Of a DNA stretch of 45,182 bases, positions 2,521-4,181 are shown one piece after another. The notes beneath the pieces are model-generated. The model was not told the origin of the DNA and ran no database searches. It saw nothing but the letters and a program-made list of their open reading frames with translations. The number at the start of each line of letters is the position of its first letter. The first letter of the stretch is position 1. The DNA is from Pseudomonadota bacterium (GTDB lineage: Bacteria > Pseudomonadota > Alphaproteobacteria > Rhizobiales > JAKPQE01). The DNA lies in contig JAKPQE010000121.1 in the NCBI GenBank assembly GCA_029572955.1, positions 1 through 45,182 of the forward strand, read 5' to 3'. Position numbers and translations under genes: made by a program.

Positions 2521-2681
2521 GGGCGCTGCCCAAGTCGCATGGCCATTTGTCAAGTCAATGAAAAAAGTGAGAATGTTGGCATGTGGCGGCTACCGCATTC
2601 TACGGTCTATGCGACTTTGTGTTGTATTCAGTCTGATGGTATCTCATGAGGCAATGCAACGCATCGAGACGAGAATGATCC

Positions 2682-3998
2682 ATGGCATATCGACTGTTGT
2701 CTTTGGATGAGCTTGTAATCAATCGGGCCAACGACCGGCATGGCGAATTGGAGAATGAGACAGCAGCGATTGCTTGGCTGTTCAACAATCGCGAGACGCA
2801 TATGAAATCCCTTGCGGCGGACATCGTCGAAGTGGGTGAGATATACGAACCGCCCCTCGTTTCTCCCGACGGCGGCAAGTTTATCGTCCTTGACGGTAAT
2901 CGACGCTTAACCTGCCTCAAAGTTCTCGAGAATCCACGACGTGCCCCAAATATCGAACTGCAGGAATACTTTTCTGCTCTAAGAAACAAATGGAAAGTAG
3001 GTTTTCCTGACCGAGTAATGTGCCAGGTCGAATCTGACCGAGACCGAGTTGATGAGATTCTTTTCAGGCGGCATACGGGAACCCAAGGTGGCGTGGGGCA
3101 GAGCACTTGGGATGACCGGATGAAGGCCAATTTCATCAATCGCACCGGAAAAGGTAATGCCGTCAGTGTTGCTGACCAAGTTGAGCATCGCCTCAAAGCT
3201 GCTGGAATGATGCCGGGTCGGCGACAAATGCCACGCTCGACAATGAATCGGTTGTTGTCATCCGAGGTGTTTCGCAACCGTGTTGGCTTTAGTATAAGAA
3301 AAGGTCGATTTGAGTATACGCATCAAGAGGAAAAAGTTCTTTCTGCTCTCAAGAGAATCGCATCTGATCTTGCTGGTCGAAAAATTGTTCTTGGTAATAT
3401 TTGGGACACTGATGGGAAGACTTACTACCTTAACAAGCTTCAGTCTGAAGGTGTTTTACCTGGAGATCCCGATCGTTTGACGGCGCCAAAAGTCAAAGAG
3501 GCTGCGAGTCCGCAGTCTAGCCAGATTGCGAGAGCACCGGTGGCCAGACAGCCGACACCTCGGCAGCGCATCCATCTGATCGCAAAAGCCGACTATGGGA
3601 TCGCTTGGCCAGGTCGTCTTCAAAGGCATCGCGCAATTTGGGAGGAACTCCAATACCACTTAGATATTTCTGTGCATCGGAACGCGATTTCAGTCCTCTT
3701 TCGCGTGCTTCTTGAACTCTCAATCGAGAACTATATCTCGCAAACTGGACTTTCCATCGACTCCAATTCCAAATTTGCCATCAAGGCGCTAAAGATTGCT
3801 GCTGACCTCCAGTCGAGAGGTAAAATAGACGCGAAATACATGGGAATTATAAAGAAATTTCAGAATTCGGATCAGCTGATTTCTGCTGATACGTTCAATC
3901 GATACGTCCACTCCTCCAATTTTGCGCCATCAGGTGACCATTTGATAGCGCTCTGGGACACGCTAGCGCCGTTCATTGTCGAATGCCTGTCTGCATAG
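2682..3998 (+). CDS. ParB/sulfiredoxin-type N-terminal domain protein, AT-rich orphan
   Basis: 438 residues. The N-terminal region contains a ParB/Srx-like core: PPLV, then KFIVLDGNRRLTCLKVL (66-82) with the nucleotide-binding type DGNRR motif (71-75), then RRHTG and GVGQSTWDD (129-145). Residues 270-295 are a Pro/Ser/Ala-rich linker. The C-terminal 110 residues (about 325-438) look helical and end in FNRYVHSSNF and LIALWDTLAPF; I do not recognise that domain for certain. There is no ParB helix-turn-helix pattern, no parA partner and no sign of parS, so a partition role is unlikely. Base composition (around 50 percent GC by eye) and codon use differ sharply from both neighbours. The repeat mosaic before it and this composition suggest transfer. 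Stand-alone DGNRR-type proteins occur in defence islands, so a defence role is plausible but unproven. Confidence 0.7.
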   Translation: MAYRLLSLDELVINRANDRHGELENETAAIAWLFNNRETHMKSLAADIVEVGEIYEPPLVSPDGGKFIVLDGNRRLTCLKVLENPRRAPNIELQEYFSALRNKWKVGFPDRVMCQVESDRDRVDEILFRRHTGTQGGVGQSTWDDRMKANFINRTGKGNAVSVADQVEHRLKAAGMMPGRRQMPRSTMNRLLSSEVFRNRVGFSIRKGRFEYTHQEEKVLSALKRIASDLAGRKIVLGNIWDTDGKTYYLNKLQSEGVLPGDPDRLTAPKVKEAASPQSSQIARAPVARQPTPRQRIHLIAKADYGIAWPGRLQRHRAIWEELQYHLDISVHRNAISVLFRVLLELSIENYISQTGLSIDSNSKFAIKALKIAADLQSRGKIDAKYMGIIKKFQNSDQLISADTFNRYVHSSNFAPSGDHLIALWDTLAPFIVECLSA

Positions 3999-4001
3999 CT
4001 T

Positions 4002-4018
4002 TGGGAACATGTTTCCCA
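4002..4018 (+). terminator. Hairpin after the ParB-domain gene, weak terminator candidate
   Basis: TGGGAA (4002-4007) and TTCCCA (4013-4018) form a 6-base stem with a 5-base loop 3 bases after the stop codon. The T-run (near 4030-4034) is about 12 bases beyond the stem, too far for a classic intrinsic terminator. The rest of the gap to gatC shows no gene. Confidence 0.35.
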
Positions 4019-4181
4019 GAGACTAGGCGTTTTTCTGAGTTGAGTGTGTCGACGCTGCGGTTGTCCCCCACCCCCATCATTGCACCACCTCTCCCCCCGA
4101 TGATATGAGGGCAGGGACGTTTCACGAGACGGGGCGGCGGCCTCCCAAGCGCGCCCGGTCAAGACACCGAGGATGGATCCC

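Follow-up and report, generated by a model that had tools for sequence, protein, structure and literature searches.

The gene at positions 2682–3998 of the stretch of DNA analyzed here (45,182 nucleotides, hereafter referred to as the window) is probably a horizontally acquired single-gene antiviral module that belongs to a methyltransferase-free branch of PD-lambda-5 A. The analysis established the family of the encoded protein, two predicted folds, the occurrence of the gene without a partner ("solo") across one clade, a patchy distribution, and the presence of defense genes next to some of the solo genes.

The window is a complete contig (C158) of a 3.76-Mb draft genome, which limits the visible upstream sequence to 2.7 kb. 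The open reading frame is intact (+ strand, ATG start, 438 residues). On its 5' side lie an aldose-1-epimerase gene and an intergenic stretch that carries repeats, and on its 3' side gatC and gatA; the location between repeats and gatC that had been described in an earlier, sequence-only reading of the window was thus confirmed, the repeats being modest. The same reading had claimed that base and codon use are unlike those of both neighbors, and this also holds. The gene has a GC content of 0.492 and a GC3 of 0.494, compared with 0.683 and 0.912 for the aldose-1-epimerase gene, 0.622 and 0.865 for gatC, and 0.696 and 0.929 for gatA (GC3 was computed without regard to strand and is quoted for these three neighbors only), whereas the GC content of the remaining window is 0.69. 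Along 120-bp windows, the GC content drops from 0.64–0.71 to 0.39–0.62 and then returns to 0.62–0.68, which delimits a low-GC block from about 2541 to about 4100. Table 1 lists the features of the gene and its product.

Table 1. Features of the solo gene and of the predicted domains of its product, with positions in the window
Feature	Position	Strand	Basis
Solo PD-Lambda-5_A-type gene, 438 codons	2682..3998	+	PADLOC PDLC03998; clade and tree
AT-rich block unlike the surrounding sequence, limits approximate	2541..4100	.	GC in 120-bp windows
Predicted ParB-CTPase / sulfiredoxin fold domain, residues 1–157	2682..3152	+	AlphaFold2 model; five ParB chains; Foldseek
N17-x-R19, ParB box-I-like position	2730..2738	+	Conservation
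D71-G-N-R-R75, putative phosphate-binding box II	2892..2906	+	Conservation; alignment with the genome's own ParB
H131...W143, family-invariant segment	3072..3110	+	Conservation
Predicted helical part like the ParB DNA-binding region, residues 158–260, R190 invariant	3153..3461	+	Structure alignments
Linker, residues 261–308, partly low-confidence	3462..3605	+	pLDDT <50 at residues 273–291
Predicted HEPN-like domain, residues 309–438, conserved R341, E345, and H410	3606..3995	+	Domain model; structure matches; conservation

The claim that neither a partner nor parA lies near the gene stands for the proteins that were scanned: no PADLOC match at E 0.001 was found among eight other open reading frames of the window, and no parA was found with Pfam among five window neighbors. 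The genome's own ParB is encoded on another contig, downstream of a ParA-like reading frame. Contig C84 of this genome (G000:C84; L275, L098) contains a weak ParB_N match in the same 524-residue frame as an N6_N4 methyltransferase, and this frame resembles the phage-type ParB–methyltransferase fusions described in the available text of PMC12704722. Neither the ordinary ParB nor this ParB_N-matching frame gave a match to the family models built here.

The PADLOC model for PD-Lambda-5_A (PDLC03998) matched residues 1–434 of the window protein with E = 1.3e-74, and a relative from Iodidimonas muriae is 56% identical across residues 1–438; these two matches, which span nearly or fully the length of the product, indicate that the gene is real. 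Searches of Pfam and NCBIfam gave no match above cut-off, hence no match to a DndB/DGQHR profile either, and sequence searches against solved structures gave nothing useful. In PHROGs, the protein matched phage families without a known function (best E 2.5e-42); as the only query, it retrieved nothing from viral contigs. It had been suggested that the gene is linked to defense through ParB-like proteins such as DndB. The link to a defense family stands, but the nearest known relative is PD-lambda-5_A and not DndB.

PD-lambda-5 originates from a functional selection (Vassallo et al. 2022, PMC9519451), and the available text of that paper describes a compact RM+Abi system that altered plating or plaque size for every phage tested except one, the host used lacking mrr. 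The division into an A and a B protein is PADLOC naming. PD-Lambda-5_B was matched by four proteins adjoining paired A genes, and the two PD-Lambda-5_B-type proteins of these four that were scanned with Pfam both matched PF02086 (D12 adenine methyltransferase). A literature search of openly available main texts found no paper describing a methyltransferase-free PD-lambda-5 A, and the available texts on PD-lambda-5 yielded no test of the A protein alone.

A DGNRR-type ParB/Srx domain had been placed at residues 66–82 of the window protein. These residues read KFIVLDGNRRLTCLKVL, and structure prediction bears the assignment out with a ParB-CTPase fold. The AlphaFold2 model, based on 68 sequences, has a mean pLDDT of 89.1. 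In structure comparisons with this predicted model, five ParB chains align at Z 9.6–10.1 over 92–95 residues, the best match being 7o0n_A (Z 10.1, rmsd 2.0, 92 residues, within residues 1–138), and the best Foldseek match is a ParB too (E 3.3e-4). Looser alignments to ParB, KorB, and Noc chains reach residues 251–259 (Z 7.1–8.9, rmsd 4.2–11.2 Å).

G72, N73, R74, R75, H131, W143, and R190 are invariant in 119 of 119 proteins, and N17 and R19 are kept in 118 of these, the one exception being a paired protein. All 119 proteins have GNRR in place of GERR with its catalytic Glu; when the window protein is aligned with the ParB of this genome (hhalign probability 48.7, E 1.8e-4), Asn73 falls on the GERR glutamate. 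According to the available text of PMC8367383, the E102A mutant of Caulobacter ParB (P-motif 2) binds CTP and does not hydrolyze it, so that the clamp is locked; we infer that Asn73 occupies the position equivalent to E102. At 27 positions, a residue that is almost constant within the solo clade is seldom found in paired proteins. That 24 of these positions fall within residues 1–260 is as expected if the sensor half had been retuned, and shared ancestry alone would leave such marks too.

The helical C-terminal domain had not been recognized from the sequence, and structure prediction with a fold search had been proposed as a check. The prediction points to a HEPN-like domain, a fold that is common among defense effectors, and not to a domain with an unrelated known role, which had been named as a finding that would speak against a defense gene. 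When folded alone, the domain reached a mean pLDDT of 95.2. HEPN/HepT structures head the list of matches to this model, with Z from 8.5 down to 5.9, and the alignment to 2hsb covers 117 residues with an rmsd of 3.4 (Z 8.5). Values for individual proteins are 8.5 for AF0298, 7.7 for HepT, 7.7 for the sacsin HEPN domain, 6.1 for RnlA, and 5.8 for AbiV, although Z values in this range do not prove a fold in the case of small helical bundles. HEPN or HepT is named in 12 of the 22 top-ranked titles, most of the others presumably being HEPN folds too, and Z falls below 5 from rank 23. Foldseek alone gave weak matches (best E 0.88). Conservation within the domain centers on H410 (64 of 68 proteins), R341 (59 of 68), and E345 (57 of 68). 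Because a single fold tops the list and these three residues are conserved, HEPN is the best reading of the predicted domain.

The canonical HEPN RNase motif, Rx4-6H, is present in only one of 64 proteins. Catalysis by the HEPN-like domain is therefore uncertain, and the domain may be structural. The absence of the motif from the other 63 proteins fits an alternative that we consider unlikely, in which the role of effector falls to the ParB-like half, which would deplete nucleotides or nick DNA, and the HEPN-like domain serves for dimerization or docking; the available text of PMC12839542 cites ParB/Srx proteins that have nicking activity. This alternative has to contend with the conservation of H410 and R341 and of a Gln, Asn, or His four residues before the His (52 of 64 proteins), which suggests a functional site in the HEPN-like domain.

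Homologues were collected from genomes, plasmids, phages, and viral contigs. A D12 adenine methyltransferase gene usually follows the A gene (104 of 123 full-length homologues), with a gap below 150 bp in 103 of the 104 paired loci and on the same strand in 87 of them. For the viral contigs, 83 loci were considered (three plus the best 80 of 131). A methyltransferase is present in 78 of these; of the remaining five, L183, L209, L222, and L223 are cut off by the contig edge. No D12 methyltransferase was found in the fetched flanks of the 18 solo loci, which include the window and three broken copies and of which two lie on short contigs (L038, 4.5 kb; L043, 5.2 kb).

The 15 full-length solo members, including the window gene, form one clade with an SH-aLRT support of 99 in a tree made with a "quick" method (SH-aLRT as the only support measure, midpoint root for drawing, long branches flagged). 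The clade is diverse, and its members share as little as 31% identity with the window protein. Fifteen of 138 loci were left out of the tree because they were shorter than 340 residues or scored below 120 bits. Seven of these have a methyltransferase; the other eight comprise the three broken solo genes, the contig-edge fragments L139 and L209, and L051, L053, and L054. Nineteen of the rows in the tree have no methyltransferase. For L183, L222, and L223, the contig stops at the gene or within it. L220 is a genuine unpaired case and groups with the solo clade (support 88). The L220 protein (L220:3968-5530) is a viral-contig A protein on a long branch beside the solo clade, with full flanks that lack a methyltransferase. 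L051, L053, and L054 encode distant A-like proteins (76–88 bits with the family model) and have no D12 methyltransferase within 18–20 kb. They are possible independent losses of the partner, and, since they lie outside the solo clade, loss of B is not unique to it.

We also considered a B methyltransferase acting in trans. PF02086 is absent from eight of the 14 solo genomes searched, the window's own genome being among the 14 and two others (G027 and G164) being only 67–68% complete; G359 carries a paired gene and was left out of the solo count. D12 matches in five of the 13 other solo genomes did not exceed 72.4 bits against the B model, compared with at least 239.7 bits for the 104 paired methyltransferases, and a trans-acting B was rejected because these matches are not B-like. 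The two D12 matches in the window's genome are very similar C-terminal fragments at contig ends (G000:C28 and G000:C50; L101, L102), for which our PD-lambda-5_B model gave a score of only 17.1 bits. The proposal of a stand-alone, possible defense gene thus gains support, at the level of sequence, from the PD-Lambda-5_A family, the lack of any partner found, and a clade that is solo at 18 of 18 loci.

The family (solo and paired members, window's genome included) is patchily distributed. It occurs in six of 101 relatives, and at the level of order, class, and phylum the counts are 22 of 397, 23 of 385, and 28 of 398 genomes, respectively; these genome sets overlap and were searched with different queries. 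None of the 20 nearest relatives (G001–G020) has a homologue, while 19 of the 20 gave a strong match to gatA. The upstream sequence of the window aligns with that of relatives from gatC onward only, besides one 19-base match elsewhere, and what lies upstream of gatC is not common to the relatives that align. Vertical inheritance next to gatC, which had been named as the other finding that would speak against a defense gene, was rejected on the basis of this alignment start together with the lack of homologues in the 20 nearest relatives. The GC content is below that of the flanks at all 18 solo loci (mean difference −0.10). Low GC is no mark of the solo clade, since the same applies to 24 of the 25 paired non-phage loci compared.

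Exchange of single genes is seen on Azospirillum plasmids, where a spot between two GntR regulator genes has both flanks preserved in five records. In the four records examined (L033, L263, L264, and L265), the flanks match at 95–98%, and the cargo is one gene each: a solo PD-Lambda-5_A, a dGTPase, and two unknown proteins of 314 and 293 residues. The latter two gave no Pfam or PADLOC match at E 0.01, and their genes are candidate defense genes.

A sample of 293 genomes from the class of G618, which belongs to the same phylum and which we take to be Gammaproteobacteria, gave 15 matches. The six that were fetched are all paired, and none of the 15 is of solo grade, the best scoring 284 bits compared with at least 525 bits for full-length solo members. 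Alphaproteobacteria use CcrM and GANTC methylation. One could imagine, although we think it quite unlikely, that the solo protein acts on DNA that the cell-cycle methyltransferase of the host (CcrM-like, GANTC) has not marked; a methyltransferase of its own would then be dispensable. The lack of solo-grade matches in another class is in line with this idea, as are the alphaproteobacterial hosts of three solo members (Iodidimonas and two Azospirillum), the placement of the 14 solo genomes searched (the window's own included) in the window's class, which we take to be Alphaproteobacteria, and a strong N6_N4 methyltransferase match in the window's genome, which is a candidate for the enzyme in question. 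The solo member on L038, a faecal phage scaffold without an assigned host, speaks against it.

It is very unlikely that the window gene is a remnant, that is, an orphaned A subunit that became nonfunctional or is decaying after loss of the methyltransferase. The missing partner and the state of three of the 18 solo copies (one split by an IS5-like element, one with stops/frameshift, and one shortened) would fit such a remnant. However, the other 15 are full-length members of one diverse clade (support 99), all of them keep the nine family-invariant residues, and conservation is at the protein level, with pN of 0.11–0.30, well below pS of 0.72–0.86, in eight pairs.

The neighborhood survey of homologues proposed in the sequence-only reading revealed defense genes beside some solo genes. 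The solo gene of L044 lies beside the Gabija genes gajA and gajB, with gajA about 78 bp away, and that of L046 lies inside a type I restriction operon (hsdM, hsdS, and hsdR), between hsdS and hsdR with one unknown reading frame in between. PD-Lambda-1 is found about 16 bp upstream of the truncated copy in L137, and there is a partial mad3-like match near the solo gene of L041. In this survey, 96 of 126 chosen reading frames from 17 solo loci (window left out) were compared with PADLOC. PDC-S01 is among the 25 matches listed first out of 314 matched families, and ten chosen proteins were assigned to loci at E 1e-50, four of them without a match; the named defense neighbors are therefore a lower bound.

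Besides A, no gene family is common to more than three of the 18 solo loci within 6 kb. Two candidates for a shared alternative partner were rejected as not general, namely a GIY-YIG-like small protein found at three of the 18 loci and an XRE/TPR-like protein of 609 residues found at two. The former is encoded downstream of and convergent to the solo gene (L039:10107-10640, L041:10488-10973, and L040:10935-11405, all on the − strand), and its GIY-YIG-like character is a reading of the sequence, the one protein scanned having no Pfam match at 1e-5. The latter has an apparent XRE-type N terminus and helical repeats; its gene and the solo gene are some 50 bp apart, in differing orientation (L044:10488-12314 and L086:10579-12402), with no Pfam match at 1e-5 for either copy and no PADLOC match at 1e-50 for the L044 copy. 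That the window protein is a transcriptional or DNA-structuring ParB-like regulator such as Noc or KorB, and not an immune effector, is highly improbable: its N-terminal and middle parts are of the ParB type and have ParB, Noc, and KorB as best structural matches, but a predicted HEPN-like domain apparently takes the place of the ParB dimerization domain, the family is PD-Lambda-5_A, and defense genes adjoin several solo loci.

If the gene is a single-gene antiviral module, as we favor, its N-terminal ParB-type module would bind nucleotide and close on, or sense, invading DNA or a phage replication intermediate, as suggested by the fold and the conserved boxes. The change of state would be passed via the linker to the C-terminal HEPN-like domain, whose fold and conserved histidine suggest that it could stop phage growth by attacking RNA or arresting the cell. 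Against this view stand the rarity of Rx4-6H, the Asn in place of the GERR glutamate that Caulobacter ParB needs to hydrolyze CTP, the three broken solo loci, the small number of loci with named defense neighbors, and the distant relatives outside the solo clade that lack B as well. Where A is paired with a D12 methyltransferase, this enzyme probably labels the DNA of the host as self. Because this DNA-marking partner is lacking, the solo protein probably tells self from foreign in another way; the solo branch would have to use another self cue, for which GANTC methylation of the host is one candidate. More speculatively, one protein could be a complete immune system, in which a ParB-type nucleotide clamp recognizes invading DNA without a self-marking enzyme of its own (or reads the cell-cycle methylation of the host) and fires an unusual HEPN-like domain that lacks the standard catalytic arginine. 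Such a system would have a single origin in a pair resembling restriction-modification, and alphaproteobacteria would have exchanged it in the form of a one-gene cassette.

Compared with the CTPase clamps ParB, Noc, and KorB, the window protein shares the predicted N-terminal fold, the GxRR phosphate box, and the helical middle part, but it has Asn for the GERR glutamate and apparently a HEPN-like domain for the dimerization domain, and no parA was found beside its gene. With HEPN effectors such as HepT, RnlA, AbiV, and Csm6, it shares the predicted C-terminal fold and a conserved His, whereas its family lacks the canonical Rx4-6H motif and the domain is fused to a ParB-type module. DndB and DUF262/GmrS-type proteins belong to the ParB/Srx superfamily as well, and DndB-type proteins have a DGQHR motif. 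The window protein differs from the DndB and DUF262/GmrS types of ParB/Srx protein (DUF262 is described in the available text of PMC10952713) in its motif, DGNRR versus DGQHR or DGQQR, in its C-terminal domain, and in having no Pfam match above cut-off. A survey of the ParB-CTPase fold published in 2025 (PMC12704722) reports numerous orphan fusions associated with mobile elements, as well as CTP, ATP, or GTP binding, and mentions neither HEPN nor PD-lambda in its main text; the fusion of a ParB-CTPase-type module to a HEPN-like domain would thus be an addition to this fold family.

Relative to PD-lambda-5, the window gene lacks an adjacent B methyltransferase, no B-like one was found in its genome, and the solo clade has DGNRR where paired proteins mostly have EGNRR. 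Over its whole length, the window protein is an A homologue, with the ParB-type half, the linker, the HEPN-like half, and all family-invariant residues. The reading of PD-lambda-5 as RM+Abi implies that the methyltransferase protects the host. A natural clade without this enzyme suggests that the A protein can be kept alone for long times, in which case self-recognition must be solved another way, and the solo clade makes it testable whether A senses methylation at all.
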